A model generated the notes under the pieces. That model worked only from the letters and a program-made list of their open reading frames with translations, ran no database searches and was not told the origin of the DNA. Of a DNA stretch of 20,150 nucleotides, positions 88 to 20,150 are shown in pieces (position 1 is the stretch's first letter; every line of letters starts with the position of its first letter). The translations under genes and the position numbers were made by a program. This stretch comes from a virus: IMG/VR virus record IMGVR_UViG_3300013120_000203, positions 1 to 20,150 of that record; one strand, 5' to 3'.

Positions 88-98
88 TTTATTGTCCT

Positions 99-1528: not shown

Positions 1529-1546
1529 TTGTAACTCCAATTCAAT

Positions 1547-3466: not shown

Positions 3467-3477
3467 GATTTATAATC

Positions 3478-3846: not shown

Positions 3847-3851
3847 CTGGT

Positions 3852-4412: not shown

Positions 4413-4413
4413 A

Positions 4414-5790: not shown

Positions 5791-5984
5791 TTTTCAATCT
5801 CCTTTATCTTTTTGATTGCAGGTTTTTTGACATTTTTAACCCGCCTCCACCCTTTTTCGATATATGCATCAAGCTCCGCTTTTTTCACAAAAACAGATTG
5901 CCCTTTTTTGATAGACTTTATGCCCATTAAGCAATCCACTGGAGCTTTGATTTCGATTTTCTTTTCTTCTTTTTTTACATTCAT
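5787..5984 (-). CDS. Small Lys-rich hypothetical protein
   Basis: The product has 65 residues and is rich in Lys and Ile. A central segment (GIKSIKKGQSVFVKKAELDAYIEKGWRRV) resembles short beta-hairpin proteins found beside phage head-completion and tail genes, in which a value is set by a pattern of KKGQ, an acidic helix, then a Trp or Val. The start ATG at 5984 follows a GAGG Shine-Dalgarno site. Its stop overlaps the tail tube start, so the two are likely translationally coupled. The function is unknown; a connector role is inferred from position. Confidence 0.7.
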   Translation of the reverse strand: MNVKKEEKKIEIKAPVDCLMGIKSIKKGQSVFVKKAELDAYIEKGWRRVKNVKKPAIKKIKEIEK

Positions 5985-5993
5985 TTTAAAACC

Positions 5994-6485
5994 TCATGTG
6001 CAAACAGGGTTATATGGATTGTCGGGACGGGTCCAGTATTCTATTGAATAATTCCATTCGATTTCAGTTTCATTAGGCTGTTGGCTTCCATGACCAACTT
6101 TCCAAGGGCGGTCATTACCACGCCTAGTTGTTACTGCCAAATCTCCCCATGTGTCATTGTCGTCAACTTCAAAAAGCGGAATAATAGCTTGTTCTGCTTC
6201 TGCGATTAATGCTTCCAAAGCTGTTTTTGTAGCTGATAAATCCGGGTCTGAGTCTATCCGTGTTGACATTGCGCAAAAAACGGGAAGGTAATTAATATAA
6301 TGACCTATTGCTGCCTCTGATTTTGTAAACCCAAATCCAACTCTCAAATATATTGAACCTGAAACCATATCCTGATTTTGAACTTCCCGTCGATCATCGG
6401 CAACGTCAACTATGTTTCCCGCTATAATTCCCTCAATTCTCGCAATCACGGCATCCTGGATTTGTTTTTCGAGCAAATCAGCCAC
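5994..6485 (-). CDS. Probable tail terminator / tail completion protein
   Basis: This 163-residue protein starts with an amphipathic helix (MADLLEKQIQDAVIARIEGII) followed by alternating beta strands. A WTRPDNPYNPV segment closes the protein. The layout (N-terminal helix, then mixed alpha-beta, just before the tail tube gene) is that of tail terminator proteins, which cap the tail tube and dock it to the head. The start is a GTG at 6485, only one base after the stop of the preceding gene and behind a GGGGA motif. Assignment rests on position and general fold pattern; I recognise no diagnostic motif. Confidence 0.6.
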   Translation of the reverse strand: MADLLEKQIQDAVIARIEGIIAGNIVDVADDRREVQNQDMVSGSIYLRVGFGFTKSEAAIGHYINYLPVFCAMSTRIDSDPDLSATKTALEALIAEAEQAIIPLFEVDDNDTWGDLAVTTRRGNDRPWKVGHGSQQPNETEIEWNYSIEYWTRPDNPYNPVCT

Positions 6486-6486
6486 T

Positions 6487-6903
6487 TTATCCCCAATGCT
6501 TTTTTACAGCTTTAGCTACGGCATTCTCAATATTTTTCTTTCCGATTTTCTCTCGCAGTTTTTCAGCTTTTTCAAGTTCAGGTTTCCTTGGCGGCTTAGG
6601 TCGAGCATAAATAATATTATGAACTAATCGCCACATTCCAATCTCCACTCTCATTGGTGCCGATATTTTTTTAACTGCTTCTTCAGATCGAACTGTGCGC
6701 CGCCCCGGAATTGGCGGGAAAGCTTTCAAGTCTTTTGGATTAGAAACATATCGCCAAACGTCTTTAGAAGTTTTTGCAACTTCCATGACTTTTTCCGCTT
6801 CAATCTGGACAGCTTTATCACCGTCACGTAATACGTTTTTGCCGAGCAATCCAAGGCTTGCTGCTACACGTTCAATACCTCTTGTATCCATTCTGACTAT
6901 CAT
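6487..6903 (-). CDS. HK97 gp10-like head-tail joining / tail completion protein
   Basis: The protein has 138 residues. The N-terminal half reads RGIERVAASLGLLGKNVLRDG and then an Ala/Glu-rich helix (DKAVQIEAEKVMEVAKTS), the pattern of the HK97 gp10 family, which takes part in tail completion. The C-terminal half is basic (RPKPPRKPELEKAEKLREK and then NIENAVAKAVKKHWG). It shares TAATG with the end of the preceding gene and sits just before the likely tail terminator, the usual place for this family. Family membership is by recognition of the N-terminal pattern and is likely, not certain. Confidence 0.65.
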   Translation of the reverse strand: MIVRMDTRGIERVAASLGLLGKNVLRDGDKAVQIEAEKVMEVAKTSKDVWRYVSNPKDLKAFPPIPGRRTVRSEEAVKKISAPMRVEIGMWRLVHNIIYARPKPPRKPELEKAEKLREKIGKKNIENAVAKAVKKHWG

Positions 6904-7109
6904 TAATAGCCATCTCGTTTTAACGGTTTTGGGCCTTGGCGAAAGTTTACCCTTTTATGCGCCGCCTTTTCGATTTTCTCCAAGGCTGCTAGGTGTGCTT
7001 CCTGCTCGGTTCTCAAAGCTCCTGGAACTATTGTAGCCGGTTTCTTTACGCTTAAATCAGCTTCAGTTGCAACCGCTGTTATAGTTGCATTATCTTCTGT
7101 GTCACCCAC
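6903..7109 (-). CDS. Small hypothetical protein in neck gene cluster
   Basis: A 68-residue product starts at a GTG at 7109 behind AAAGGGG. The first 30 residues are acidic and Ala/Thr-rich, followed by a short helix (TEQEAHLAALEKIEKAAHKR) and a basic tail with KPLKRDGY. The gene shares TAATG with the following gp10-like gene. The start context (AGGGG, then TAAATC, then GTG) is almost the same as that of the Lys-rich gene upstream. The function is unknown. Its place between the capsid and tail-completion genes is where small connector proteins are encoded. Confidence 0.65.
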   Translation of the reverse strand: MGDTEDNATITAVATEADLSVKKPATIVPGALRTEQEAHLAALEKIEKAAHKRVNFRQGPKPLKRDGY

Positions 7110-7126
7110 GATTTACCCCTTTCTAT

Positions 7127-7264
7127 CTAGAAACAGGCGGTCGTATTATCGCTCATTTTCAAATCGTCTGTACCGTCGCAATAACACATAAAGTTTGAAG
7201 TGTCATTGTAAAAAATAGCACCTTCTCCAAGAGTCCCGCAAGGGTCCTCCGTTGTAAAGTGCAT
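7127..7264 (-). CDS. Small Cys-rich structural-type protein (CDGT motif)
   Basis: This 45-residue frame starts at the ATG at 7264 behind GGCGGAG and ends 17 bases before the next gene. It contains GEGAIFYNDTSNFMCYCDGT and four Cys (positions 9, 27, 29 and 44). The pattern of a short beta-hairpin, an N-x-x-T stretch and then C-D/N-G-T is a common C-terminal motif in phage and bacterial surface fibre-like proteins. The same frame is open upstream to 7375 and reads plausibly as NNEINLSGLSTLTGGA, but has no ATG or GTG start there, only a TTG at 7291. The real product may therefore be longer, joined to the Lys-rich gene by recoding or because of an assembly indel. Confidence 0.6.
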   Translation of the reverse strand: MHFTTEDPCGTLGEGAIFYNDTSNFMCYCDGTDDLKMSDNTTACF

Positions 7265-7310
7265 TATTGCTCCGCCTGTTAAAGTTGACAATCCCGATAG
7301 ATTGATTTCA

Positions 7311-7454
7311 TTATTTGTTTTTTCCTTTCGGTGTTTTCGGCGTTTTCGATGTTTTAAGTGCTTTTGGCGTTTCCTTCATGCCCTCTTTGGTCTTTGAAAT
7401 TGCCGACGTTTTTCTTTTGCGAAATGGTTTAGCCGGCCTTGATATAACAGCCAC
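7311..7454 (-). CDS. Small Lys/Arg-rich basic protein
   Basis: The product has 47 residues when started at the GTG at 7454, which follows AGGGGGAAATC, nearly the same context as the GTG start at 7109. A longer frame to 7499 would run through the intrinsic terminator just upstream, so I reject that start. The sequence begins AVISRPAKPFRKRKTSA and ends in a (T/S)-K-T-P-K repeat tract with KTPKTPKGK. About a third of the residues are Lys or Arg. The composition suggests binding to nucleic acid or to an acidic capsid surface, but no family is recognised. It lies just after the major capsid gene. Confidence 0.55.
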   Translation of the reverse strand: MAVISRPAKPFRKRKTSAISKTKEGMKETPKALKTSKTPKTPKGKNK

Positions 7455-7467
7455 GATTTCCCCCTTT

Positions 7468-7500
7468 AAAAAAATACGTGGGGTTTTTACGCCCCACATA
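7468..7500 (-). terminator. Intrinsic terminator after the major capsid gene
   Basis: On the minus strand TATGTGGGG (7500-7492) pairs with CCCCACGTA (7483-7475) around an 8-base loop, giving nine pairs with one wobble. Seven T residues follow directly (7474-7468). It lies 17 bases after the capsid stop codon. Partial termination here would keep capsid mRNA in excess over the neck and tail genes downstream. Confidence 0.8.
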
Positions 7501-7517
7501 ATTTTAGTTGTTATTAA

Positions 7518-8432
7518 TTACACACCAGTTGATCCCCAGATACCACGCCAATCTGAAAATCCAACACTGAACCTCATTCTACCCGCAAAACTTTCGACGT
7601 TCCGTGAACCACGTTTGCTTATCTGGCTGTAAGTAGGTTTTACTCTCCAGAAAAAGTTAAGTTCACTAATGGTTTTATCTTGCAAAAACCAAGCAGTAGA
7701 ACTTGTCAGATAAGGCCAAACGATAATTTCAATTCCCTGTCCTAACAATGAGTTTACATCATTGTTAGCAGTACCAGACTGCTGTGCCGACTTCAAAACT
7801 GTTTGAGCTGTAAACTGTAATGCTGGAGGCACAATTAATGATGTCGGCTTTATCATGATTTTCTGCCCGGCATCATCAAGAGCAGCTGTATCACTCATGG
7901 CGATAATAGCATTTTTGAGCTCGGTGTCTGAAAATGCCGCGGTCCCTTTGTTATCTGCGGTTGCAGTATCGCCCGTTCTCGGCTTTTTTAGTGTATGAGA
8001 ATCAGCACAAAGCTGTGCGCTATCCGGTCCGGTTTGCCCGCCGGTAAAAGCGTTGTTCAATACATCAGCCGATGTTGATTCAACAAGCCTTTGAGCGCCC
8101 ATGCCCATTTGCTTAGCCCATTTCTCCATGAGACCATATTTTTTATCTTCCCAAAGAGATAAGCCAATCTCCATGGTTTTGCGATAAGTCTCGTGAGTAT
8201 ATTCAGTTGTACCAATCTCTTCAAACCGATCAAGTGCAATGGCTTCTGTGTCTTCAATTTGATCCCAGGCACCAAGACCGGCAACCGCTAAATCTTCCTC
8301 GCTTGATTGTGTTGAACTGTTTACATTAAAGATTTTCTCCATGACGCCGGGACGGGCGGAAAATCCGGTAAAAAACGCTTTTCTTAATCTCGGAGAAAGC
8401 AGGTTTCCCCAATTCTGTGAAATCATAGCCAT
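7518..8432 (-). CDS. Major capsid protein, Mu gpT-like
   Basis: This 304-residue protein is expected to form the icosahedral head shell. Length and features fit the Mu-like major head subunit gpT family (Mu gpT is of similar size). Visible landmarks are the N-terminal segment with LLSPRLRKAFFTGF, the central EYTHETYRKTMEIGLSLWEDKKYGLMEKWAKQMG, the strand IKPTSLIVPPALQFTAQTVLKS, and the closing FFWRVKPTYSQISKRGSRN...RMRFSVGFSDWRGIWGS. A strong AAGGAGG Shine-Dalgarno site precedes the ATG at 8432, as expected for a highly made protein; a second ATG two codons later is less well spaced. The gene follows scaffold and decoration genes and is followed by a terminator. Confidence 0.87.
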   Translation of the reverse strand: MAMISQNWGNLLSPRLRKAFFTGFSARPGVMEKIFNVNSSTQSSEEDLAVAGLGAWDQIEDTEAIALDRFEEIGTTEYTHETYRKTMEIGLSLWEDKKYGLMEKWAKQMGMGAQRLVESTSADVLNNAFTGGQTGPDSAQLCADSHTLKKPRTGDTATADNKGTAAFSDTELKNAIIAMSDTAALDDAGQKIMIKPTSLIVPPALQFTAQTVLKSAQQSGTANNDVNSLLGQGIEIIVWPYLTSSTAWFLQDKTISELNFFWRVKPTYSQISKRGSRNVESFAGRMRFSVGFSDWRGIWGSTGV

Positions 8433-8443
8433 TGGAAACCTCC

Positions 8444-8863
8444 TTATCCGTTGTTAAATATGTGAGAAGTGGTGATTATCATTACAAGGGTATCCTCGCT
8501 TGCCGTGCTGTATTCTACTACCACAAGGTCGGTGTTAGATGACGCAGCCACTCCGTTGTATGTCCCGTTGATATCCAAAGTATCACCCGGGAAACGCTCG
8601 TTTGCATCTTCAACACGAAAGACAGCATTGCATCCATCAATTACTCGAATGCTTTCACCGTCATCTGTGTTATCAACTGCCTCAGCCGTTACGCCAAGCA
8701 GCGTAGTTGAGCCAGTCGCACCGTTATCTATCTCCTGCGAAGTTACCTCTACTATTTCGCCCTCTGCCATATTTAAGGCATCTACCATGACCATAGGCTT
8801 TAAAACCCTTGCGTCATAGCTGCCATTTTGGTAATAGGCAAATTCAAATCCAGTAGTTGCCAT
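8444..8863 (-). CDS. Probable head decoration / capsid-stabilising protein
   Basis: This 139-residue, acidic, almost wholly beta-type protein lies between the scaffold gene and the major capsid gene, the position of lambda D and similar decoration proteins. Strands such as VLKPMVMVDALNMAEGEIVEVTSQE, LLGVTAEAVDNTDDGESIRVIDG and DLVVVEYSTASEDTLVMIITTS fit a small beta-barrel. A strong AAAAGGAG site precedes the ATG at 8863, in keeping with high copy number. It would bind the outside of the mature shell. The role is inferred from position, size and composition. Confidence 0.65.
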   Translation of the reverse strand: MATTGFEFAYYQNGSYDARVLKPMVMVDALNMAEGEIVEVTSQEIDNGATGSTTLLGVTAEAVDNTDDGESIRVIDGCNAVFRVEDANERFPGDTLDINGTYNGVAASSNTDLVVVEYSTASEDTLVMIITTSHIFNNG

Positions 8864-8869
8864 TTTTAT

Positions 8870-9499
8870 TTACTCCTTTTTCTTTTGCATTTCTTCAAGG
8901 GCCTTGCTTGGATTGTCACGCCACATTGCGTATTCCTCCGGGGTTTGCCCTGACTCTTTTGCCATTTTTTCCTCATCGCTAGTCAATTTAACCGATTCCT
9001 TTTTCTGATTTTCAGGATTAATAACCTTGCCGCCATTCGCATCTTTAATGACAGTTTCTTTAGCGTCTGAAAAAGCCGTTGCAAAATCGTCAACTTGATC
9101 CAGAGATTTAATCAACGGAATAAATTGACTTGGTATTTTTAACTCCTTGGCCTTTTCTTCAATTCGCTTTTTTTCAGATTGATTTGAAATCGTCTCTTTC
9201 AGGCTTTTTACTTCATCCAGGAGCGGTTTAAGGTAATCAGGCATTTCGCTTTGTGCTTTTTGCAACTTTGCCGCTTTTTCCTCAAGAGCTTTTTTTTCAG
9301 ATGCTTCTTTATCTATTGCCGCCTGGCTTTCTTTGAAGTTTTCAACTCCTTTTCCTACCCTTGAATCAAAAAAACTTTTGACATTTGGATTGTTTTCTAT
9401 GAACTTTTCTAAATCCTCGCTAGTCATTTTTTCCGGCTCAAAAGTAGTCTCAGTTTTCTTTCCACCTTCCTTTTTCAAATCATCATTCAAATCTGCCAT
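8870..9499 (-). CDS. Capsid scaffold protein (DUF4355-like)
   Basis: The protein has 209 residues, is highly charged and mostly helical, with long Lys/Glu coiled-coil stretches at about residues 56-120 (including QAAIDKEASEKKALEEKAAKLQKAQSE and DEVKSLKETISNQSEKKRIEEKAKEL). The N-terminal block with MTSEDLEKFIENNPNVKSFFDSRV and the acidic, Lys-tipped C-terminus are typical of scaffold proteins, which guide procapsid assembly and bind capsid subunits through the C-terminus. It directly precedes decoration and capsid genes. It is preceded by a 160-base leader with four 9-base repeats. The exact family is by pattern recognition. Confidence 0.8.
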   Translation of the reverse strand: MADLNDDLKKEGGKKTETTFEPEKMTSEDLEKFIENNPNVKSFFDSRVGKGVENFKESQAAIDKEASEKKALEEKAAKLQKAQSEMPDYLKPLLDEVKSLKETISNQSEKKRIEEKAKELKIPSQFIPLIKSLDQVDDFATAFSDAKETVIKDANGGKVINPENQKKESVKLTSDEEKMAKESGQTPEEYAMWRDNPSKALEEMQKKKE

Positions 9500-9514
9500 T
9501 GTCTCAATCCTTTC

Positions 9515-9608
9515 CAGTATCCCAATTAGATTCAGCGTGCCAAAATTTCCAGTATCCCGACAAATTCAGTATCCCGTAAAAATTGGTGCTTCAAATAATC
9601 AGTATCCC
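9515..9608 (-). repeat. Four direct repeats of GGGATACTG in the scaffold leader
   Basis: On the plus strand CAGTATCCC occurs at 9515-9523, 9550-9558, 9567-9575 and 9600-9608, always in the same direction. Start-to-start distances are 35, 17 and 33 bases, so close to a 17-base step with one step doubled at each end. The copies lie in the 160-base gap between the MuF-like and scaffold genes, with no credible ORF in it. They could bind a regulator or act in the leader RNA. Confidence 0.8.
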
Positions 9609-9659
9609 AGTCTAGTTAATATTAAAAGCCGTTGCGAAATGCCCCGGCTATTTTAGTAA

Positions 9660-11000
9660 TTAAAAGCCTGCTAATTTGTACAACGCCCAATTGCTAAAAG
9701 CTCCTTTGCCATTGCGCCTGTTATAATCTTCTAATAATTTTTTGTAAGCATGCTGAGATTTAATTTCATGTTTTGTTGAAATATAAGCCTTGCGCACCCT
9801 ATCGCCAAGAGACGATGGAGTTCTAGCTTTATACGCATTTGCAACAATAATGCTGTGAGGTGGAGTTGTCCCATATGCCACATGATCCGACAACCTTAAT
9901 TGCTTAGCCCCTTTGCTAATTCCGTTTACGTACGCTGATTGCGTTGACAATGAATAATTAACACTATTGCCGGACAAAGAGGCTATCGTATTAGCTAATC
10001 CGTTTATGCCGCCGTGCTTGTAAGACTCATTTATCAACCTGTCGTTAAGTTCTCTGTTTCGTGATCCTTTTTTTAAGGGCGTCAATTTAAAACCGGGTCC
10101 AGTTCCAGGTATCTCTTTGTGTTTTGATTTATTTTTTTCTTTTTTTATTGTCCTTATTTTTTTTGTTGCGTCTATTTCTCCTCGCCCATACCCGACGATT
10201 ATGCAGTTGCAGTTTGGATGAAAAGGTGGGTCTGGATAATCATTTTTGGGGAAAACTGCTACCTCGCCTTTCGCCACGCCTAACGCATCTTCACAAACTC
10301 CTTTAGGGTCCGGGCCGCTCCCACACCGGATTTTCACATGAGTAATAGATTTATCATTTTGCGCATAGGCGTCTTTAGCCGCTACATCAATTTGAGTTGA
10401 CGTAGTACGAACTATCGTTCTAAGCCTTGCGTTTATTGCTTTAAATGGAATATTTTTACCCGGTTTGACAATCCCAAAAACATTACGTCTAATATTTCGG
10501 GCTGTTTCATCAATTGAAAATCCGCCCGCCTGGCCTGTCAGTATCTCATCACGGATTTTATATCTAGCTGAATTAAGTATCTGCCTGGTTTGAAGTCCCA
10601 TATTATCAGAAATATCTATCATCGAATTAAGCCAAACATCACCTAAATTTTGATTTACATTTGCTGCGATTATATTTTTCATTGAGTCTGTCCCTCGAAT
10701 TAGATTTAAAGGCAGACTGTTTTTTTCAATAAATTTAGAATGATCTTTCATGTATTCCGAAAGCATCATATTGCGGTTCGCTTTTACCAAATATTTCAAA
10801 AGAAAACGCTGTTCTCTTTTCACATCTTTTATCAGCCGTGAATATATTGATATCCCCCTTGCGGATTCAACGTCCATACCTTTGAGTTTTCCGAGTTGAC
10901 GTTCAAGTTTAGCCCGTAGCCGCTTTTCAGTTTCTTTTAAAATTTCAAAATTACGCCTGATTATTTTTGCGTCAATTGAATATAAATCAATAGCGCCCAT
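9660..11000 (-). CDS. MuF-type head morphogenesis protein with long C-terminal extension
   Basis: A 446-residue minor head protein (SPP1 gp7 / Mu gpF family), expected inside the head near the portal. The MuF domain is visible at about residues 130-270: helical region, then NARLRTIVRTTSTQIDVAAKDAYAQ, then the Cys/His part with RCGSGP, VCEDALG and the closing PPFHPNCNC (residues 258-266). An N-terminal coiled coil (about 10-75) precedes it. Beyond residue 275 lies a Lys-rich linker (KKIRTIKKEKNKSKHKE) and about 140 further residues with no recognised fold, ending NWALYKLAGF. MuF proteins in many phages carry C-terminal effector or toxin domains, so this part is a candidate passenger domain. 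Its start shares one base with the portal stop. Confidence 0.85.
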   Translation of the reverse strand: MGAIDLYSIDAKIIRRNFEILKETEKRLRAKLERQLGKLKGMDVESARGISIYSRLIKDVKREQRFLLKYLVKANRNMMLSEYMKDHSKFIEKNSLPLNLIRGTDSMKNIIAANVNQNLGDVWLNSMIDISDNMGLQTRQILNSARYKIRDEILTGQAGGFSIDETARNIRRNVFGIVKPGKNIPFKAINARLRTIVRTTSTQIDVAAKDAYAQNDKSITHVKIRCGSGPDPKGVCEDALGVAKGEVAVFPKNDYPDPPFHPNCNCIIVGYGRGEIDATKKIRTIKKEKNKSKHKEIPGTGPGFKLTPLKKGSRNRELNDRLINESYKHGGINGLANTIASLSGNSVNYSLSTQSAYVNGISKGAKQLRLSDHVAYGTTPPHSIIVANAYKARTPSSLGDRVRKAYISTKHEIKSQHAYKKLLEDYNRRNGKGAFSNWALYKLAGF

Positions 11001-12415
11001 TATTCAGACTCGCTTTCATCGTCATTATCATCGTTTTTTGATTTCTCGTACTCGGCTTTTACGCTATCAAATAATTCCTGGTTTGCAGACTCTCTCTCGT
11101 TTTCCTGTGCTTCGATCATCGCCACTATTTTATCATCATCAAAACCGATAGCCTTTAAAGCCTCTTCAATAAATCCCTGTCCGGCCAAAAATTCGGCACG
11201 TTTAAGTTGTACTGTCGGGTCCTCAGTGTCGAGACTCGGAAATACTACGTTTATATTATAGTCATCGGGTTTTCCGTTATCGATCAAAGACAATACCAGT
11301 TTCATTAATTGAGCCGTACTAGACTCAATCCGAGTCATAAATCGCCTGACATTTCGTTTACCGGAAGCATTCAAAATGACAAGAGATTTACCGCTGCTAT
11401 TCGGGCTATTTGATATAGCTTCTTTCGTTGAACGACGCACCCCGATTGCTTCCCAAACCCCATCTTTTGCAGACTCAACTTTGTCAATTACAGATTGCGG
11501 GGCACCGTTTAAATTCAGACTTCCGACTGGCCATGGAATATAAGAACCGCCATCTAAGCTCATTTCCGTGCGTGTTGAATCACTGCCATCTTCTGCGTTT
11601 TGCTGAAAAATAACTGAAAAAGCACCGAGCTTATTAGCTTGCATTTCTTGACAAAGATACGTCGATAAAATCAGTTGAGCTTCAATAGCATCTGACAGCC
11701 CGGACCGCCCGTGCTTTTCGTTTTGTACATCTTCATATTTGAAATTAATTAATGTAAATTCGCTTAAACCATGGCTCCAGGTTGATTCCGGGTCCGTTAT
11801 GCCACCAACCGCAAAGACATTCCCATCCCTGGTAATAGTCTCTGTCACTTCAACAGTTGAAGTAGCGTCTTGGCCTGTTTCAATCGTTAAGTTGTACTTA
11901 GCAACATAACCGGTTATTTCGTTTACATTATCTAAGTCAGATAGAATATCGAAGTTGATATCGTCAATCTCAGTTACAATCGGCATGCCAGCTTTTTTTG
12001 TGACTTTCGCCGGAAATTCGCCATCACGAAAACATTTCATTATTATCGTCGATAGATATTCCTTGAACTTTTCAGTATTACCGCAATGAGCGCCTTTTAG
12101 CCAGTCCTGCAAAATCGTATTAACCCGCTCATCTTCTAGCCCTTCTTTGTCAGTAGCCGTTATCTCAATTTCAGACGCCGGGATAATCGAAAGAAAAGCT
12201 TTACCTGCCTTTTTTAATTCATTCTCGAAAGGCACTTTTTCTTTTGTGATCTTATCAGCATCGGCTGTATCTTCATTAACCCATCGGGTTTTAAACATTT
12301 CAAAATGTATATCTATATCAGTGTCCCAAAGGCCGCGATAGTTTGCTAAATCTGTTTCGCGATTTGCGACGCCGCCTTTTAAGCTGCCTACAGTCTCATC
12401 ATTCGTGTCTGTCAT
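11000..12415 (-). CDS. Portal protein
   Basis: This 471-residue protein is expected to form the dodecameric ring through which DNA enters and leaves the head. Position between terminase and MuF genes is the standard one. Visible portal-like features are an N-terminal acidic lead, the segment with LSIIPASEIEITATDKEG and the central EKHGRSGLSDAIEAQLILSTYLCQEMQANKLGAF (about residues 233-266), then a long helical region with SSGKSLVILNASGKRNVRRFM. The C-terminus is strongly acidic (YEKSKNDDNDDESESE). Family assignment is by gene order and the GRSGLSDA helix; I cannot say which portal subfamily it belongs to. Confidence 0.8.
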   Translation of the reverse strand: MTDTNDETVGSLKGGVANRETDLANYRGLWDTDIDIHFEMFKTRWVNEDTADADKITKEKVPFENELKKAGKAFLSIIPASEIEITATDKEGLEDERVNTILQDWLKGAHCGNTEKFKEYLSTIIMKCFRDGEFPAKVTKKAGMPIVTEIDDINFDILSDLDNVNEITGYVAKYNLTIETGQDATSTVEVTETITRDGNVFAVGGITDPESTWSHGLSEFTLINFKYEDVQNEKHGRSGLSDAIEAQLILSTYLCQEMQANKLGAFSVIFQQNAEDGSDSTRTEMSLDGGSYIPWPVGSLNLNGAPQSVIDKVESAKDGVWEAIGVRRSTKEAISNSPNSSGKSLVILNASGKRNVRRFMTRIESSTAQLMKLVLSLIDNGKPDDYNINVVFPSLDTEDPTVQLKRAEFLAGQGFIEEALKAIGFDDDKIVAMIEAQENERESANQELFDSVKAEYEKSKNDDNDDESESE

Positions 12416-12417
12416 TA

Positions 12418-12672
12418 TTAATATGCACCTTTGATTTTAATTGCTTTTCCAGGCTCATATGGTCTTTTTTTCAAAGTCAAAACATCAGATTTTAAAAAAT
12501 ACCATTCAGCATTTAGGGCCGGAGCTTTGACGATGTAGTGTAATTCATTCTCGCTGATTTTTATTTTTTCAGCTTTGATAATCGTAGGCTCTGAACGGCC
12601 CTTGATATGCACTTTGAGAGACACCATTCTTTTCGGCTGTGTCACAAAAAAATTTTTAAATCGTTTCAACAT
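12418..12672 (-). CDS. Small basic protein between TerL and portal, unknown
   Basis: The product has 84 residues and is basic. The first 16 residues (MLKRFKNFFVTQPKRM) form a possible amphipathic helix, followed by short beta strands (SLKVHIKGRSEPTIIKAEKIKIS and ELHYIVKAPALNAEWYFLKSDVL). The start ATG directly abuts the TerL stop and the end lies two bases before the portal start, so translation is coupled. The strand pattern suggests a small beta-barrel or SH3-like fold, but I recognise no family. Confidence 0.65.
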   Translation of the reverse strand: MLKRFKNFFVTQPKRMVSLKVHIKGRSEPTIIKAEKIKISENELHYIVKAPALNAEWYFLKSDVLTLKKRPYEPGKAIKIKGAY

Positions 12673-14097
12673 TTAATAACCTGCATATCTCATCGGCTTT
12701 TGTTTGCGCATATAGGCCGGGAAATCTCTTACTACCATGTAACCAAATCCATCCGACGTATGAGAGCGTTTTAAGTCTGATTTATCAAGCTGCCTCGTAC
12801 CTTCTTTAAAACTCATTTGCTCAAAGTCGGCTGAAAGCTCTTTCAGCTTTGGGCTTATCCTGATTCCGATTTCGCCTTTTGCGTTTACGAGCTTAGCATT
12901 AACCGAGGCCACTCTGTCAATTACCGCCGGGTTTGCTTTTGGAACTCTAATATCTCGAAATCCGTTTTCTCTAAAAATAGCATAATCAGATTTCGCCGTT
13001 CCTCTATTTCCAGAAGCATCACCATAAACCACGGTCAAACGCTTGTCATATCCACGCGCCAAATATTCGTTTAAAGCTTCCTGTGTGTTTGATTCTTTGA
13101 TTACAATCTCATCAAGAACGTCAATAACAACATCCTGGTATTTTATTTTCTTTCCGCCAATTACAGCGTGGCGTGGCAAGTCCTTTCCTGTGCGTTTAAT
13201 CTGACAGATAACCCATGACATTGGTGTCACGTTAAAGTCGCAACAGAGAAGCACTTCGCAGGAAGGATCATACTTTAAATCCATTACAGTATGAGTCCGG
13301 CGGTTGTAAGCATGGTAGACTTTGCCTTTGCCTATCGGCACCCATCCGCCGTAAATATTCTGTTCAGCTAATTGCGGGTCAAGGTTCGCAAGTTGCGAGT
13401 CAATGTAACCATCGGCTAAATTTGCTTCGTTATGATATGACGTTAATTGCGTACTCCAGCGAGTCTCTTTTAGTTTATCGTTTTTTTCCGGTTCTGCATG
13501 GAAGTAATCATAAAGCCAGTTAAAGCCGTCCGGCCTGGTCGTCACGTCAATCGTCGGGCAGGGTTTCATGTTCGGGCAGGATAACCGAGATAAAACCGTA
13601 TCAAACGCCTCTCGTTTAGTATCCCATGCCTCATCAATCCAAGCCCATCCTAATTCTATTCCTTCAATATCCTCATAGTTTTTCAGAGACCTGGTAAAAA
13701 CCTGCGCTCCCCACTTAAACGTAATAACAGCATCGTGGTTTTGAAACCGGCTTTTCACGTTCCATGCCGCCGGAGGCATGGTATTGAAAACATATCGCCC
13801 GCCCGGATTTCCTCTTGGAGAATATTTTGAAATCTCGTAAAATTCCATCAACATTTTCCAATAGACCGGTAACGTCGAATGGTGCAACTGCTTGTAGCTA
13901 TTGGCTGCAATTAGCCCAACTGAATTAAAATGATCTATTGACTTTTTAATTGCTTTAAAAGCACCTATCCAGGTTTTTCCGGATCGCCACCCGCCACATA
14001 TCAAATTATGAGGTTTTTTAGAATCACGGAATAGCCTCTGTGGGCGGCTCATTCTCAGATCATGCGCAAGGTCTTGATACGAATTAACTTGAACCAT
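12673..14097 (-). CDS. terL: Terminase large subunit (ATPase and nuclease)
   Basis: This 474-residue protein packages DNA into the head. The ATPase domain has a Walker A GGWRSGKT at residues 35-42 and a Walker B WAWIDE with D155 and E156 at about 151-156. The nuclease domain has the RNase H-like acidic sites CCDFN (D287), VVYGDASG (D360) and a later SHTSDGFG Asp near residue 451. Length is typical for a headful or cohesive-end terminase. The gene overlaps terS by 14 bases. The motor would dock on the portal encoded just downstream. Confidence 0.93.
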   Translation of the reverse strand: MVQVNSYQDLAHDLRMSRPQRLFRDSKKPHNLICGGWRSGKTWIGAFKAIKKSIDHFNSVGLIAANSYKQLHHSTLPVYWKMLMEFYEISKYSPRGNPGGRYVFNTMPPAAWNVKSRFQNHDAVITFKWGAQVFTRSLKNYEDIEGIELGWAWIDEAWDTKREAFDTVLSRLSCPNMKPCPTIDVTTRPDGFNWLYDYFHAEPEKNDKLKETRWSTQLTSYHNEANLADGYIDSQLANLDPQLAEQNIYGGWVPIGKGKVYHAYNRRTHTVMDLKYDPSCEVLLCCDFNVTPMSWVICQIKRTGKDLPRHAVIGGKKIKYQDVVIDVLDEIVIKESNTQEALNEYLARGYDKRLTVVYGDASGNRGTAKSDYAIFRENGFRDIRVPKANPAVIDRVASVNAKLVNAKGEIGIRISPKLKELSADFEQMSFKEGTRQLDKSDLKRSHTSDGFGYMVVRDFPAYMRKQKPMRYAGY

Positions 14098-14641
14098 CGC
14101 CCTGAGCTTTCTTGTTTATCCGCTCTAAAATCTCATCGGCTAAGTGGGTTTCTTCAACTGTAAACGTCACTTGCGGTCTGCTCGTTTCGTTATCTTTTAC
14201 GTCACCTTCCAGCATGGGCTTTACCCGGTCATAAGCCATGTTTACCGTTTCACATGAGTGTTTTAAGCGCATCGGGTCCTTTTCGGTTTCAGACAACAAA
14301 GACGCCCTTTTTAAGATTTTCATTTGCGCTGTCAGATAAAAAGAATCAATTTTTTCACGCCATGTTTCAATTATCGTATGACTTTTTTTTTCTGCTTTGG
14401 CGTCCTCTTTTAGCCTTGTTTTTTCTAATAATTTAAGTTTTTTTTTCAGATATTCTTTCCGCTGATCTCCCCATGTTCCCCGACCTTGCCGCTTATCTTG
14501 ACCTGAAAATGCAGTCAATGTCGTAAAATTTATTTTTGTAGTTTTCGCAGTTTCTTTGAAAGTATAACCCTGAAATACAAACAGGTCATGCGCTTTTTTT
14601 TTTCGCTTTTGCGAGATTTTTTTTGCGCCGTTGTGTTTCAT
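14084..14641 (-). CDS. terS: Terminase small subunit
   Basis: The 185-residue protein has a Lys-rich N-terminus, then a helix-turn-helix at about residues 20-50 (AHDLFVFQGYTFKETAKTTKINFTTLTAFS), then long helices (EYLKKKLKLLEKTRLKEDAKAEKK and later) that would form the oligomer, and a C-terminal tail (ETHLADEILERINKKAQ) that could bind the large subunit. It overlaps TerL by 14 bases in the usual terS-terL order. It would recognise phage DNA for packaging. The Shine-Dalgarno site is weak, which may keep its level low. No close family is named with certainty. Confidence 0.8.
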   Translation of the reverse strand: MKHNGAKKISQKRKKKAHDLFVFQGYTFKETAKTTKINFTTLTAFSGQDKRQGRGTWGDQRKEYLKKKLKLLEKTRLKEDAKAEKKSHTIIETWREKIDSFYLTAQMKILKRASLLSETEKDPMRLKHSCETVNMAYDRVKPMLEGDVKDNETSRPQVTFTVEETHLADEILERINKKAQGDGSS

Positions 14642-14686
14642 AATTTTTCACATATTCCAAGGTTTTTAATCGTCAATCTGCATTTA

Positions 14687-14854
14687 TTATTTATCTTTCT
14701 TTTTCGTAATTTGTCTGTAAGCAGTATAACTGCCGGCAAGAGCCACAATAGTTGAAATAGCTATTTCGCCTGAGATTTTATCAAAGCATGCAAGAATCGT
14801 AATACAGATAACTGCAATCAAAACGATTATGAGCTTAGAATTGAAGGTTTTCAT
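14687..14854 (-). CDS. Small two-helix membrane protein, holin-like
   Basis: A 55-residue frame starts at ATG 14854 behind TTGGAG. It has two hydrophobic segments, residues 8-23 (LIIVLIAVICITILAC) and 31-46 (IAISTIVALAGSYTAY), split by a short DKISGE turn, and ends in a charged tail QITKKKDK. Short length, two membrane spans and a Lys-rich C-terminus are typical of class II holins. It sits between a terminator and the terS gene. Holins close to terminase genes are known in some phages, but no endolysin gene is visible beside it, so the lysis role is inferred. Confidence 0.65.
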   Translation of the reverse strand: MKTFNSKLIIVLIAVICITILACFDKISGEIAISTIVALAGSYTAYRQITKKKDK

Positions 14855-14865
14855 TGATCTCCAAT

Positions 14866-14908
14866 AAAAAGCAGGAAGTCCCGGGAGTTAACCCGCTTCC
14901 TGCTTTTT
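14866..14908 (-). terminator. Strong intrinsic terminator before the late genes
   Basis: A perfect 13-base inverted repeat spans 14866-14878 and 14896-14908 (AAAAAGCAGGAAG with CTTCCTGCTTTTT), with a second inner stem CGGG/CCCG. On the minus strand the T tract (14870-14866) follows the stem, so it would stop transcripts coming from the replication genes. The plus strand also ends in T residues, so it may work both ways. It ends 11 bases before the start codon of the holin-like gene. Confidence 0.88.
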
Positions 14909-14918
14909 GCGAAGTTAC

Positions 14919-14993
14919 GCGGATAAGTTTTTTTGTCTCGATAAAGACATACCCGCTCTCGAACGTGTAAAGAACTAATCAGCCTGTTGGCTG
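14919..14993 (-). other. Hairpin-rich non-coding segment upstream of the terminator
   Basis: On the minus strand CAGCC-AACA-GGCTG forms a 5-bp hairpin at 14993-14980. Next, GCGGGTA (14956-14950) pairs with TATCCGC (14925-14919), and directly inside this the arms TGTCT and AGACA (14949-14934) pair around a 6-base loop. The 190 bases between the small HExxH gene and the holin-like gene contain no credible ORF. Stacked hairpins just before a terminator could be a regulatory RNA, such as an antitermination signal, or a small RNA; nothing proves this. Confidence 0.5.
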
Positions 14994-15034
14994 TGTTGCG
15001 CCTTAGTTATTTTAGTCATGATTCTTTTATTATT

Positions 15035-15047
15035 ACATAATTTATGT
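15035..15047. repeat. 13-base palindrome ACATAA-T-TTATGT
   Basis: A perfect inverted repeat with a one-base centre overlaps the stop codon of the small HExxH gene. Its length and AT-rich symmetry fit a protein-binding operator, but no regulator is encoded nearby and short palindromes are expected by chance in AT-rich DNA. Confidence 0.4.
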
Positions 15048-15397
15048 CATTTTCTTTTTTTCGTGTCAAGAATATTTTTTCTATATTCTCGAACATCGAT
15101 TAAATATTCGAGAAATCCAGGGCTTTCCAAAAGCACACAAAGCATTCCCGCTGATCTGACTTCAATTTCAAGCTCCTTACTTTTTACAATATAATAACAC
15201 TCTTCTATTCCGTGCATTACTTCATGTAAAAGCGTTTGTGCTTCGATTTCCGGACTTGTTTCATCCAACAATATTTCAGGATTTCTATAGTCAATGGTCC
15301 CTCGTGCCTCTTTTGCGTCTAGTATCTTTTCATTTCTACATATAGGAAAAACTATATGATTTATTTTAATGTTTTTTGGCAATTCTGGCTTTTTCAT
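15047..15397 (-). CDS. Small HExxH metalloprotease-like protein (ImmA/IrrE-like)
   Basis: This 116-residue protein has a zinc-metallopeptidase helix TLLHEVMHGI with H58, E59 and H62. A later acidic helix (KELEIEVRSAGMLCVLLESPGFLEYL) supplies a likely third ligand among E77 and E79 and matches the common pattern of small phage HExxH proteins related to ImmA/IrrE. It is short for a full ImmA protein and has no helix-turn-helix or other domain. An AAAGGAG site precedes the ATG at 15397, which overlaps the previous gene by 32 bases. Substrate and role are unknown; it is the last gene before the terminator. Confidence 0.7.
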   Translation of the reverse strand: MKKPELPKNIKINHIVFPICRNEKILDAKEARGTIDYRNPEILLDETSPEIEAQTLLHEVMHGIEECYYIVKSKELEIEVRSAGMLCVLLESPGFLEYLIDVREYRKNILDTKKRK

Positions 15398-15818
15398 TCT
15401 CTCGAAACTCCTTTATTTTTTGATTTATTGTTGCGACAAGTCCGCCACCTGGTACCCGTTCAAATTCCATTTTATGCCAAGTTAAAGTTCTGGTCTGTGA
15501 TAACAGTCCCGCAGTCTTAAAAGCTTCGTAACACTTTCGTAGACCCCGGCTGTAGGCTTTTTGATCTTGAGCCATGATCTTCTTTTTGTGGTCCGGGCAA
15601 AGAATAGCTTTTATTCCTGACCATTCTAAGTCTGTTAAGTTTGCCGCTCCTGATTCCAGGATTTTTGCGACATCGAGAGCGTCATTGATTAATTTATAAG
15701 GGTCTGATTTTGCAATAAAAACCATTGAATCGGGGTCCACATAAATAGCTGACTGCCCGCCGGTTTCCTTGAGTTTAAAATAGAGACTCAGCAGATATTT
15801 CGTTTTTTTTAAGTTCAA
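15366..15818 (-). CDS. Hypothetical protein of the replication module
   Basis: A 150-residue product starts at a TTG (15818) directly behind a near-perfect GGAGGTG, inside the end of the RusA-like gene. The N-terminal part (YLLSLYFKLKETGGQSAIYVDPDSMVFIAKSDPYKL) is followed by helices. A lone CPDH (Cys-Pro-Asp-His) occurs at about residue 75 and the C-terminus is charged (INQKIKEFRENEKARIAKKH). I recognise no family. The tight overlap with a resolvase and a small protease gene puts it in the replication or recombination cluster. Confidence 0.7.
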   Translation of the reverse strand: MNLKKTKYLLSLYFKLKETGGQSAIYVDPDSMVFIAKSDPYKLINDALDVAKILESGAANLTDLEWSGIKAILCPDHKKKIMAQDQKAYSRGLRKCYEAFKTAGLLSQTRTLTWHKMEFERVPGGGLVATINQKIKEFRENEKARIAKKH

Positions 15819-16239
15819 GAATCACCTCCACTCTTTCTCCTTTGCCGTCATCATATCGTTTTTTAGCTGAAATGTCCGAAATTTGACCGTCATCTTTAAA
15901 TGCCACGCCGTTTAAAGCGTCCAATATGCTTTTGACCTGGTTGTCTAGGTCCGGCTTAGTTGCCGGAATAATATACCCTTTTATCATTAATTGAATTTTC
16001 TTTTTTGATGTTTTAAGAAGTTTTCTATAAATTGTTATTTTTGCTTTTACCGGACCTTCCAAGGGCTCCCAATGGTTTTTTTTCATCTGAATATATGCCA
16101 AAGCATATATATTACTTTCATATTTATCAGATTTTGGGTCGGGATAAATTCGTATATGTTTACCCATTTTTGTTGCGCGAGGTCTGCCCTTCGGCTGGCA
16201 TGACCCAGGGAAAATAAATTTAATCTGAGTTGAATTCAA
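15775..16239 (-). CDS. rusA: RusA-type Holliday junction resolvase
   Basis: The 154-residue protein would cut branched DNA made by replication and recombination, clearing it before packaging. It has the family layout: an N-terminal PGSCQPKGRPRAT loop (residues 11-23), the acidic catalytic core KPDLDNQVKSILDALNG (D97, D99) and a second acidic pair FKDDGQI (D116, D117), then a Lys/Arg region and a final ERVEVILE strand. Length fits a RusA monomer; the enzyme is a dimer. The start is a TTG at 16239 sharing TTGA with the helicase stop, behind AGGAGGA. Confidence 0.9.
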   Translation of the reverse strand: MNSTQIKFIFPGSCQPKGRPRATKMGKHIRIYPDPKSDKYESNIYALAYIQMKKNHWEPLEGPVKAKITIYRKLLKTSKKKIQLMIKGYIIPATKPDLDNQVKSILDALNGVAFKDDGQISDISAKKRYDDGKGERVEVILELKKNEISAESLF

Positions 16240-17669
16240 TATAAGTCCTCCTGTTCCGGCTCATAATAACTTTCCGCTTCATTTTCTTCATAATCCTGAG
16301 TCTCAGAATAAAATCGGGATTTTAATCCATTCCAGCGCAAGTCACCTTGACTGAGTGGGCCGTTGCGATTTTTTTTGATAGACCAGGAGGCTACATCCGT
16401 TAAATCCACCGGGCAATCCTCATTTTTATTTTCGTAAGCTTTTTTCCAGCGGACAAAAAATAGAATAATATCGGCATCTTCCTCAAGCTTCCCGGACTCT
16501 CGCAAATCTGAAAGAAATGGCATTTGGTTTGAAGGTTCACGCATATCTACATTGCGATTCAGTTGAGATAAAACCGCAAGATGGATATTCAGGTCTTTTG
16601 CCAATTGCTTGAGCCCTGATGAAATATAAGATATCCTCTCGTAAGGGCTGTTTATGCCCTCTTTAGCTTGCATAATCTGCAAATAATCCACAAAAGCAAC
16701 TTTAAAGGGTCCATATTCAGCTCTTATCTCGGTTAATTTGCTTCTGAGATATTCCAGAGTTGGGCTTGAATGATCATTAATAATTATCGGCAAAGTTTTA
16801 AAGTGTGACGCTGCTTTATATATTTGATTTTTGATTTCATCAATTTCAGTATACTCGTTAAATTTAGACATTCTTGAATAAGCTTTTAAAAGCCCAAATT
16901 CAGATTGTCCTGACCTTCCCAAAATCAGACGTCGTATGAGCATTTGCTTTGTCATTTCTATCGTGAAAATTGGAACTATTTCGCCACGCTTTGCTATGTT
17001 TTCAACTATATTCATCATCAATGATGTTTTACCCATAGACGGCCTGGCCGCCCACAGCGAGTATTCCCCAGGTCTCAAAGATATTACTCTATCAATTCCG
17101 TTAAATCCGGTTCGCACCCCTGGCGGGTTTCCGTTTTCTAGCATATCAATTATTGAATTTGTGGCTTTATTTAATTCGCATTCTTTTGATGTATCTTTAA
17201 AATTCGATGTTGTGTTTTTTCCGTTATCTGAATTTAATTCTATTAGTTTTTCCTGGGTTTTTTGAATAATATCAAAGGATTCCAGACTAGCCATACTATC
17301 ATCAATTACATTCCTGCCTACTTCAAAAATACTCCTTAATTGCGACTTCTCTTTTATTATTTTTGCGTAGTTTTTAATGTTATAGCTTGTAGGTACACTT
17401 TCAGTAAGCTCTGAAAGATAAATTATTCCTCCAGCTGATTTTAAATTATTTTCATTTTTCAGGAATTCCGAAATCGAAACCAGGTCAATAAAATCGCCCC
17501 GTTCAGATATGACTTTCATGGCTTCAAAAATCATGCGATTTTGGGCTTTAAAAAAGTCCTCATTTTTGACCATATCCAAAACCTGATTTATAGCAGGCGG
17601 CCGGAGCATGATAGAACCCAATAAAGCTATCTCAGATTCAACTGAATTTGGCAATTCTCTATTTTTCAT
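16236..17669 (-). CDS. dnaB: DnaB-family replicative DNA helicase
   Basis: This 477-residue helicase has an N-terminal domain (about 1-150: SVESEIALLGSIMLRP, then FFKAQNRMIFEAMKVI and TSYNIKNYAKIIKEKSQLRSI) and a RecA-like C-terminal domain. Walker A is ARPSMGKT (residues 208-215), Walker B is VAFVDYLQIM (about 324-333, D328), followed by LAVLSQLNRNVDMR and SDLRESGKLEEDADIILF, all typical of DnaB. It would unwind DNA at the phage fork, loaded by the initiator-like protein or by a host loader. The start ATG at 17669 follows GAGGA. Length is normal for the family. Confidence 0.95.
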   Translation of the reverse strand: MKNRELPNSVESEIALLGSIMLRPPAINQVLDMVKNEDFFKAQNRMIFEAMKVISERGDFIDLVSISEFLKNENNLKSAGGIIYLSELTESVPTSYNIKNYAKIIKEKSQLRSIFEVGRNVIDDSMASLESFDIIQKTQEKLIELNSDNGKNTTSNFKDTSKECELNKATNSIIDMLENGNPPGVRTGFNGIDRVISLRPGEYSLWAARPSMGKTSLMMNIVENIAKRGEIVPIFTIEMTKQMLIRRLILGRSGQSEFGLLKAYSRMSKFNEYTEIDEIKNQIYKAASHFKTLPIIINDHSSPTLEYLRSKLTEIRAEYGPFKVAFVDYLQIMQAKEGINSPYERISYISSGLKQLAKDLNIHLAVLSQLNRNVDMREPSNQMPFLSDLRESGKLEEDADIILFFVRWKKAYENKNEDCPVDLTDVASWSIKKNRNGPLSQGDLRWNGLKSRFYSETQDYEENEAESYYEPEQEDLY

Positions 17670-17688: not shown

Positions 17689-17793
17689 CTAAGCGTTTTT
17701 TAGAGCTGAGGTACGCAAGATAAGAGCAACATATTTTAAATGCAACCTACCCATGGTAGCTTTACGATTTTGATATGTTTCAGCATCACTCAT
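17689..17793 (-). CDS. 34-residue protein between initiator and helicase genes
   Basis: The ATG at 17793 overlaps the stop of the 339-residue gene as ATGA, a strong sign of coupled translation. The product, beginning MSDAETYQNRKATMGRLHLK and ending VALILRTSALKNA, is basic and could be an amphipathic helix. It fills most of the 120-base gap before the helicase gene, whose Shine-Dalgarno site lies after its stop. No family is recognised; a helicase loader would be much larger. A leader peptide or small adaptor is possible. Confidence 0.5.
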   Translation of the reverse strand: MSDAETYQNRKATMGRLHLKYVALILRTSALKNA

Positions 17794-18809
17794 AGCCCCG
17801 CCCTTGCTATTTCCTGACAGATTTTAATTAATTTGAGTCTTGCCATTGCTGGTGACTGCGAATGAAGCTTCCTGATTTCGGCAAGATTTACAGCCCCGGA
17901 TTGAAGTGTTTTTTTAGCTAATTTTGATATCGGCTCGGGCTTCTCATTTTTATCCGAAATTGAAGCTAAAATTTCACTCGCCAATTTTTCAGCATTTTCG
18001 TTGTTTTTTGAATCAATGTTTTCTTCTGGATTTACGAATTTCCTCAAGCCGGTTTTTTCGCGAGACATGAAAGTCTCAAAATTCCAAGCACAAAAAGTCC
18101 ACTCGCTTCCATTCCATGATTTTTTTCGACAAGCTTCATGATAATTTTCGATTGCTTGAATTATTTGAGTTGAGTTAAATCCGGTTTTTTTCATTTCGGT
18201 TTTAATCAGGTCGTCAACTGATTCAAAATTAGTTTGTATTTCCGGATGATGTTTCTTCCAGGTTTCAAAGATTATTTTGCTGTCTGAAATTTTGGATTTG
18301 GAGTGCCGCTTTTTTGCTTCCTTATTTTTACATCCCTTCCCATTTTCAAGCTCCCCCTGGGGGGGTTTGGGGGGGATTCTCTTCTCTTCTCTTCTCTTCT
18401 CTTCTATACACCCAATTACACCTGATTGCACTTCGATTACACCCGATTGCACTTCTCTTGAATTATCATATAGTTTTGACTTTTTCCGATGCTTTCCTTG
18501 GCCGGGCGGTTGACGCTCTAAAAAGTCCGAAATTTGAAGAAATCGGGCGTCGCACCCAATTACACCCAATCGCACCCTAATTAAACCCACCTCAATTAGT
18601 TCCTTCAAATAACTCTCAACTTTAGCCTCTGTCCACCTTCGACGAGGTACGACTTTTGCCAGAATATATCCCGCCTCTCCTTGGAGCATTCCCCAATCAT
18701 CGGCATGTGGATTCATCCAGGTCCAGAGTAAAGCGGCCTGATCTGATACTTTTGATAATTTATTTGAAATTGAAACATCTGACCAAAGACGCCGCCATTC
18801 CATTATCAT
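17790..18809 (-). CDS. Phage replication initiator / replisome organiser-like protein
   Basis: This 339-residue protein lies just before the helicase gene, as lambda O-type initiators do relative to helicase or loader genes. The N-terminal 100 residues (EWRRLWSDVSISNKLSKVSDQAALLWTWMNPHADDWG and then AKVESYLKELIEVGLIRVR) look like the winged-helix domain of phage replisome organisers. The linker (about 110-165) is low-complexity: EVQSGVI occurs twice, then EEKRREEKR and PPKPPQGE. The C-terminal part (residues 170-250, with SKIIFETWKKHHPE, QIIQAIENYHEACR and WTFCAWNFETFMSREKTGLRKFV) is the typical C-terminal block of such proteins. The start is ATG 18809 or, two codons on, ATG 18803; neither has a strong Shine-Dalgarno site. 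Confidence 0.72.
   Translation of the reverse strand: MIMEWRRLWSDVSISNKLSKVSDQAALLWTWMNPHADDWGMLQGEAGYILAKVVPRRRWTEAKVESYLKELIEVGLIRVRLGVIGCDARFLQISDFLERQPPGQGKHRKKSKLYDNSREVQSGVIEVQSGVIGCIEEKRREEKRIPPKPPQGELENGKGCKNKEAKKRHSKSKISDSKIIFETWKKHHPEIQTNFESVDDLIKTEMKKTGFNSTQIIQAIENYHEACRKKSWNGSEWTFCAWNFETFMSREKTGLRKFVNPEENIDSKNNENAEKLASEILASISDKNEKPEPISKLAKKTLQSGAVNLAEIRKLHSQSPAMARLKLIKICQEIARAGL
18377..18405 (-). repeat. Pentanucleotide repeat (AGAAG)n in the initiator gene
   Basis: On the plus strand CTTCT is repeated five times in tandem at 18381-18405, preceded by a partial unit TTCT. On the coding strand this gives AGAAG units that encode EEKRREEKR. Two runs of seven identical C/G bases lie next to it (18359-18365 and 18369-18375). 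Loss or gain of one unit would change the reading frame. Confidence 0.85.
18407..18591. repeat. Helically phased decamer repeats, candidate replication origin
   Basis: Two groups of 10-11-base units with consensus YRCACCCRAT lie inside the initiator gene. Group one, plus strand: TACACCCAAT 18407-18416, TACACCTGAT 18417-18426, TGCACTTCGAT 18427-18437, TACACCCGAT 18438-18447, and the degenerate TGCACTTC from 18448. Group two: CGCACCCAAT 18551-18560, TACACCCAAT 18561-18570, CGCACCCTAAT 18571-18581, and a degenerate TAAACCCACC. Steps of 10 or 11 bases put the units on one face of the helix. In lambda, iterons bound by the O protein lie in the O gene linker, so the setting matches an origin. Origin function is inferred. 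Confidence 0.6.
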
Positions 18810-18990: not shown

Positions 18991-19779
18991 TTAACTATGA
19001 TATTCAACTTTTGCTTGCTTGTCAAACATTTCATTCACCATATCTTTTGACGCCTCAAAAGCTTCACCGTCACCCTGGAGCACTTCTTCCTCATCATTGT
19101 TTTCTTCTCGAATGAAAATTTTATCATCATCTATGAAAGTGATTTTGAAAATGGTTCCCCTTTTATAATCTCCGAAATCTTCCTTGAGTTTTATAAATTT
19201 GCCTTCGTCTAAAGTGACAAAGAGGTTTTCATCAATGGCGCCGTCATCATTATCATTGTCTACCTCATCATCACTTAAATTAATTTTCTGAAACAAATCA
19301 AGCTGTTTCAAATCTTTCTCAAGCAATTCCAAGTCTATATTCCAGGCACCATATAATTTATATTCCTTTCGGAAAAACTCTAAGTCATGACCAACTGTAT
19401 TTAAATTGTTATCCTCATCATCAATGTTAATATGCGATAATTCGTGATAAATTAAAGCTTCTCGCTGTTTATAGTTCAACCGTTCCCAAACGTCCCAGGA
19501 CAGAATTATAATATAATCTTTATTGTTAAGGACTTTATTTTTATCAGAAACTTTTTCGCAAGAGCCGTAAATAATCCGGCCCTTGGAAGTCGTATGTTTT
19601 TCTCGAAAAAGGAAAGCAATTCGCAAAGCTCCAAATTTAGTAAATTTTTCATACATTAGATTTTTTAATGCTTTTTTAAACTCATTACTTTCAATTTTCC
19701 AAAACTTCTCCTTTCCTTCAGGGGCGTCCTGATTTGCGTCATAATCTTTAAAAAAAGTACCGATGCTTCCTTCACTCAT
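18991..19779 (-). CDS. Putative phage metallopeptidase with acidic C-terminal extension
   Basis: This 262-residue protein has a zinc-binding helix with REALIYHELSHI (H112, E113, H116). Further on come VGHDLEFFRKEYKLYGAW (H131, D132), which fits the third-ligand region of the putative phage metallopeptidase family. An upstream strand block (KGRIIYGSCEKVSD, then DYIIILSWDVWERLN) also fits this family. Residues of about 165-262 are very acidic (DDEVDNDNDDGAIDE; EENNDEEEVLQGDGE) and form an extra domain with short strands. The start ATG at 19779 follows AAGGAGAAAATGAA. The substrate is unknown; the protein is encoded next to the GyrA-like gene. Confidence 0.75.
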   Translation of the reverse strand: MSEGSIGTFFKDYDANQDAPEGKEKFWKIESNEFKKALKNLMYEKFTKFGALRIAFLFREKHTTSKGRIIYGSCEKVSDKNKVLNNKDYIIILSWDVWERLNYKQREALIYHELSHINIDDEDNNLNTVGHDLEFFRKEYKLYGAWNIDLELLEKDLKQLDLFQKINLSDDEVDNDNDDGAIDENLFVTLDEGKFIKLKEDFGDYKRGTIFKITFIDDDKIFIREENNDEEEVLQGDGEAFEASKDMVNEMFDKQAKVEYHS

Positions 19780-19808: not shown

Positions 19809-20111
19809 TCAACAAATAGCGACAACGGCGTCTGTCGGATCAACATTCATCAATTTCATGCCCTGACCGCCCCTGCCCTGCGACCTGATGTTGTCAACCA
19901 AAAGCCGCAAAACCTTTCCGTCTTCTGTGATAATGACAATTTCTTCATTATCTGTGTAAATTTGAGAAGCGACTACCGGCCCTGATTTGTCAGAAGTCAG
20001 CATACCTCTGACTCCTTTTCCGCCACGGCATTGAAGCCGCAACTCATCAAGCTCAAACTTAATTCCGTATCCGTTTTTTGTAATCGCGATAATATAAAGT
20101 TTTTCACCCAT
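19809..20111 (-). CDS. Stand-alone two-blade DNA gyrase A C-terminal-type protein
   Basis: This complete 100-residue gene has its own AAGGAG site and ATG at 20111. It consists of two repeats about 51 residues apart, each ending in a GyrA-box-like motif: QCRGGKG at residues 27-33 and QGRGGQG at 78-84 (canonical box Q(R/K)RGG(R/K)G). Blade strands are also clear (ITKNGYGIKFELDELRL; IVIITEDGKVLRLLVDNIRS). In gyrase this beta-pinwheel domain has about six blades and wraps DNA; here only two remain and no breakage domain is present. It could dimerise to wrap DNA or interfere with host gyrase. TATAAT at 20138-20133 may be a -10 site, with its -35 outside the window. Confidence 0.85.
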   Translation of the reverse strand: MGEKLYIIAITKNGYGIKFELDELRLQCRGGKGVRGMLTSDKSGPVVASQIYTDNEEIVIITEDGKVLRLLVDNIRSQGRGGQGMKLMNVDPTDAVVAIC

Positions 20112-20150
20112 GATTCTTTCTCCTTTTTTGTAATTATAACTTAAAATTAA

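Follow-up and report, generated by a model that had tools for sequence, protein, structure and literature searches.

The DNA-wrapping domain of the gyrase A subunit (the GyrA CTD; PF03989, a β-pinwheel) normally has six blades and is joined to gyrase, in which blade 1 with its canonical GyrA-box is needed for wrapping. Neighboring blades of the pinwheel swap hairpins (PMC3797127), and the blade-5 box matters for supercoiling and decatenation in M. tuberculosis (PMC4643928, PMC4585971). Apart from the protein reported here, the only free version of the domain met in this work is Gac of Borrelia burgdorferi, a whole GyrA CTD of 30–35 kDa that is translated from its own ribosome site inside the host gyrA; Gac binds and wraps DNA, complements certain HU features in E. 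coli, and is an HU-like DNA-wrapping protein and repressor (PMC10127594). Also connected with gyrase are the small phage proteins Gip and Igy, which have a length of about 50 residues and are not described as gyrase parts (PMC10886550). Large phages also carry GyrA blades within full-length GyrA proteins (phrog_551; IMG/VR L003–L052), which in the IMG/VR loci are complete subunits of about 700–810 residues.

The gene described here lies in a window that is an entire 20150-bp virus record, linear by IMG/VR classification, with the contig incomplete on the side of the gene (Table 1). Blades 5 and 6 of GyrA make up the whole of its 10.9-kDa product. It resembles the GyrA CTD in sequence, in the order of its blades, in fold, and in its box loops, and is unlike it in having two blades rather than six, in lacking the gyrase core and the canonical blade-1 box, in carrying an RGG box on blade 6, and in the loss of lysine 17. 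As with Gac, GyrA CTD sequence is produced here as a protein in its own right, with a dedicated ribosome site; unlike Gac, the phage protein is confined to two blades and is encoded by a separate gene. We conclude that this is a real, unusual gene: a free GyrA wrapping domain is already known from Gac, and the two-blade phage version was seen in no other virus searched.

Table 1. Features of the two-blade gene and its replication-cluster neighbors (window positions)
Feature	Position	Strand	Evidence or remark
Two-blade GyrA gene, 100-residue product	19809..20111	-	ORF, Pfam, PDB matches, TIGR01063 alignment, blade profiles
Shine-Dalgarno AAGGAG, 8 nt 5′ of ATG	20120..20125	-	Same motif in leader of next gene
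First repeat, residues 1–52, blade-5 type	19956..20111	-	Blade 5, 54.7 bits; next blade 1, 31.0
Second repeat, residues 53–100, blade-6 type	19812..19955	-	Blade 6, 57.5 bits; next blade 1, 31.8
Box QCRGGKG, residues 27–33, blade-5 repeat	20013..20033	-	Equivalent of the GyrA-box-like motif of GyrA blade 5 (PMC4643928, PMC4585971)
Box QGRGGQG, residues 78–84, blade-6 repeat	19860..19880	-	GG at residues 81–82 in 0/80 GyrA
Putative phage metallopeptidase (PF18894), HELSH motif	18991..19779	-	29 nt 3′ of the two-blade gene, same direction
Replication-initiation-like protein	17790..18809	-	Same operon direction as the two-blade gene
DnaB-like replicative helicase	16236..17669	-	

In terms of homology, Pfam finds two DNA_gyraseA_C (PF03989) repeats in the protein (E 3.3e-24; 84.5 bits vs a cut-off of 27), and a phmmer search of the PDB matched 13 distinct sequences, every one of them GyrA or topoisomerase IV, so the match to GyrA is not due to chance. 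The NCBIfam gyrA profile TIGR01063 aligns over columns 696–795 of 800 with a score of 75 bits; the >877 bits and the catalytic core of full-length GyrA are absent, as are four of the six blades of the complete β-pinwheel. When scored with blade-specific profiles built from 34 bacterial GyrA proteins with six blades, the first repeat is of the blade-5 type and the second of the blade-6 type, which bears out an earlier note, made from the sequence alone, that had read two GyrA CTD blades in this gene. The profile columns and the blade-specific scores together show that the protein corresponds to the final third of the GyrA wrapping domain, with the blades in order. Its closest relatives are bacterial GyrA proteins, at up to 48% identity among the matches listed, whereas the blades of full-length phage GyrA are more distant (25–36%).

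The predicted structure agrees with this assignment. For an AlphaFold2 model, the protein was aligned with 67 segments covering GyrA blades 5–6; the model has a mean pLDDT of 92.9 and a pTM of 0.83. It superposes on GyrA CTD structures, 5ztj and 1zi0 (99 residues, 1.8 Å, Z 15–16), with residues 739–837 as the matching part of E. coli GyrA (Z about 15). Since the input alignment was made of GyrA, a pinwheel fold is to be expected and is not independent proof; the blade fold, whose absence would have spoken against the earlier reading, is nonetheless present in the model, and the hydrophobic blade core is apparently kept (pLDDT 93).

A GyrA-box-like motif had been proposed for each blade, and both motifs are present, with the correction that only the second is unusual. 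The blade-5 box of GyrA reads QGRGGKG in 60 of 80 proteins, and the phage motif QCRGGKG is ordinary for this position. At the site of the phage QGRGGQG motif, GyrA has GRNTQG or a similar sequence, and the blade-6 loop of the phage protein is thus altered to a second RGG box. The RGG arginines 29 and 80 and K32 are retained; the canonical blade-1 GyrA-box, Q(R/K)RGG(R/K)G, is missing along with blade 1, and lysine 17, invariant in the 67 GyrA segments, is replaced by isoleucine. The phage protein has a net charge of 0 and a pI of 6.2, compared with a median pI of 8.9 for the equivalent GyrA segments, 28% of which also have a net charge of ≤0. With this charge and pI and with lysine 17 lost, the protein does not fit the simple picture of a strongly basic protein that coats DNA.

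The open reading frame, its length and strand, the Shine-Dalgarno site, and the two box motifs are as previously described; the statement that both ends are clean holds for the 3′ end, where the stop codon follows the last strand at the end of blade 6, and is not borne out at the 5′ end, where the contig stops before closure becomes visible. Between the ATG and the contig edge there are 39 nt, 13 codons of the same frame without a stop, so a clean 5′ start cannot be read directly. The start at position 20111 is, however, strongly supported by indirect evidence from the sequence. Homology to TIGR01063 covers residues 13–112 of the 113-residue open frame, in which the ATG is residue 14; the 39-nt leader has a G+C content of 18%, vs 45% in the gene; it carries the AAGGAG motif, which recurs in the leader of the next gene; and in an edge-cut gyrA with the same blades (L153), GyrA similarity continues to the contig edge as GVRGMVLDKGDYVIGMEMV. 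The coincidence of Shine-Dalgarno site, ATG, and homology boundary points to a separate protein with its own start, as in Gac, with no upstream stop visible within the contig. Codon use in the frame of the gene matches that of other phage genes. The gene is probably free-standing.

Relatives of the same length in other phages, which the earlier note had proposed looking for, were found in none of IMG/VR, INPHARED, and BFVD. In IMG/VR and 84,980 species genomes there was no tblastn-confirmed close relative of the two-blade protein, and four scans of IMG/VR, in which the pattern scans require near-exact box motifs, returned no free-standing relative: the box-5 patterns retrieved GyrA only, in frames that were full-length or cut by contig ends, and the box-6 pattern gave no confirmed relative. 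A tblastn search of INPHARED up to E 10 matched 39 records, and the 11 frames measured were all 400–890 residues long, none of them free-standing. A BFVD fold search likewise gave no free-standing viral match, with confident matches of about 750–1370 residues. Among the matches listed for about 1,900 genomes of seven phyla there was no free-standing copy, all frames exceeding 590 residues except two, of 132 and 300 residues, each on a contig ending just upstream. In six of these phyla the matches listed were those of E 1e-19 or 1e-20 and better, and as mainly very strong matches were thus listed, diverged short genes could be missed in this survey. The literature searched holds no report of such a phage two-blade gyrase gene, and no relatives of the neighboring metallopeptidase were found in IMG/VR.

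Several candidates were set aside in the course of these searches. A Halorhabdus plasmid protein annotated as a C-terminal β-propeller protein has about 525 residues and hence is not a two-blade protein. A weak match to phrog_19787, a 92-residue phage family, was ascribed to chance, its sole other match in the eight records searched being to a frame of 170 residues that does not lie at gyrA. Duplication of the end of a host gyrA at a prophage att site is unlikely, given that the best identity to GyrA found is 48% and that the start of the gene coincides with a domain boundary and has a Shine-Dalgarno site before it. GyrA genes themselves are common in IMG/VR contigs (L003–L052, L154–L171), many of them >100 kb; uncut frames are about 700–810 residues long and keep the QGRGGKG box in the wrapping domain. 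Several unannotated “Bacteriophage sp.” faecal clones in INPHARED (L145–L151, L172; MT83xxxx) carry a full-length gyrA of bacterial appearance; these clones probably represent bacterial DNA within a phage collection.

All recognized phage genes of the window are on the minus strand. Read from right to left, the two-blade gene is followed by the PF18894 metallopeptidase, the replication-initiation-like protein, the DnaB helicase, and a RusA resolvase, and then by the terminase subunits, a probable portal, a MuF-like head protein, and further probable structural genes. The phage location and the adjacent metallopeptidase reported earlier are therefore both confirmed, and the two-blade gene comes first in the replication gene cluster as far as the contig shows it.

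The reading we favor, at a likelihood somewhat short of even, is that of a domesticated GyrA blade 5–6 fragment serving as a DNA-binding or DNA-bending accessory protein in the replication operon. A bacterial-type 3′ piece of gyrA would have been taken over by the phage and expressed as its own protein, which, by analogy with Borrelia Gac, would bind or bend phage (or host) DNA during replication. It is this analogy and the position at the head of the replication cluster, next to the genes for the replication-initiation-like protein, DnaB, and RusA, that favor the accessory role. The zero net charge, the pI, the lost lysine, and the absence of blade 1 with its canonical box count against DNA binding, and the gene is a single instance in one incomplete genome, with no conserved relative in the databases searched. 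Because blades swap hairpins with their neighbors and two blades leave unpaired edges, the protein is probably an oligomer rather than a monomer, and three copies would supply six blades. That three copies indeed swap hairpins to re-form the ring of six blades, with as many as six RGG boxes, and thereby supply the phage with its own DNA-wrapping nucleoid protein or a gyrase helper, is doubtful; if true, only a third of the usual domain would be needed to make such a protein. Interference with gyrase ranks close behind the DNA-binding role and is nearly as likely, while in itself still on the unlikely side: the protein would pair or compete with the host GyrA CTD, by hairpin exchange or by occupying the wrapped DNA, and so lower or redirect host supercoiling for the phage. 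The model suggests a close structural copy of the last two blades of GyrA, and the low net charge would suit both protein pairing and DNA binding. Small phage inhibitors of host gyrase are known in Gip and Igy, but these have about 50 residues and are not described as copies of the gyrase wrapping domain (PMC10886550).

A captured gyrA fragment that is translated and either functionless or on its way out would account for the single instance without a conserved relative in the databases searched and for the loss of the invariant lysine, and is nevertheless improbable, as the good start signals, the exact domain boundaries at both ends, and the apparently intact hydrophobic core of the model argue otherwise. 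The earlier view that this is no decayed gyrA is upheld, for the frame has neither a frameshift nor an internal stop, and a second RGG box has been newly made rather than lost. In T4-type phages, topoisomerase is split over several genes, and with the contig incomplete on this side, the N-terminal part of GyrA and GyrB could be imagined upstream, past the edge. Such a split enzyme is very unlikely: every uncut phage GyrA frame found was full-length, about 700–890 residues, with the CTD attached, the set of genes looks like that of a small tailed phage, and a piece holding only blades 5 and 6 would require blades 1–4 to sit on the other piece. Least probable of all is that a full-length gyrA was truncated by the end of the assembly, leaving its 3′ part as the gene seen here. 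The frame is open to the edge, as such an artefact would have it, but GyrA similarity ends at the ATG, whereas in the edge-cut L153 it reaches the edge, and the AT-rich leader carries a Shine-Dalgarno site; the assembly fragment of a host gyrA that had been named beforehand as one refuting outcome is disfavored on these grounds.

A phage gene reduced to two blades would show how far the DNA-wrapping module can be pared down, and it would suggest that this phage targets host supercoiling. It would also provide a natural construct for testing DNA binding by single blades and RGG boxes, and pinwheel assembly from separate pieces.

Some further features of the phage were observed. Two different HExxH zinc-peptidase-like proteins occur in this one small phage, the PF18894 protein, whose C-terminal part of about 110 residues is acidic, and a protein with the motif HEVMH (15047–15397, minus strand). 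About 400 bp at 14642–15046, just upstream of the putative small terminase, hold no recognized gene, and no tRNA or Rfam match was found in the window. Nearly the same phage is represented by another record, IMGVR_UViG_3300009314_000323 (L054, L064; 98–99% DNA identity), which spans window positions 1–15812. The putative capsid protein (7518–8432) is among the least conserved genes between the two records (97%), and the second record extends about 2.7 kb past the left end, adding a 794-residue protein.
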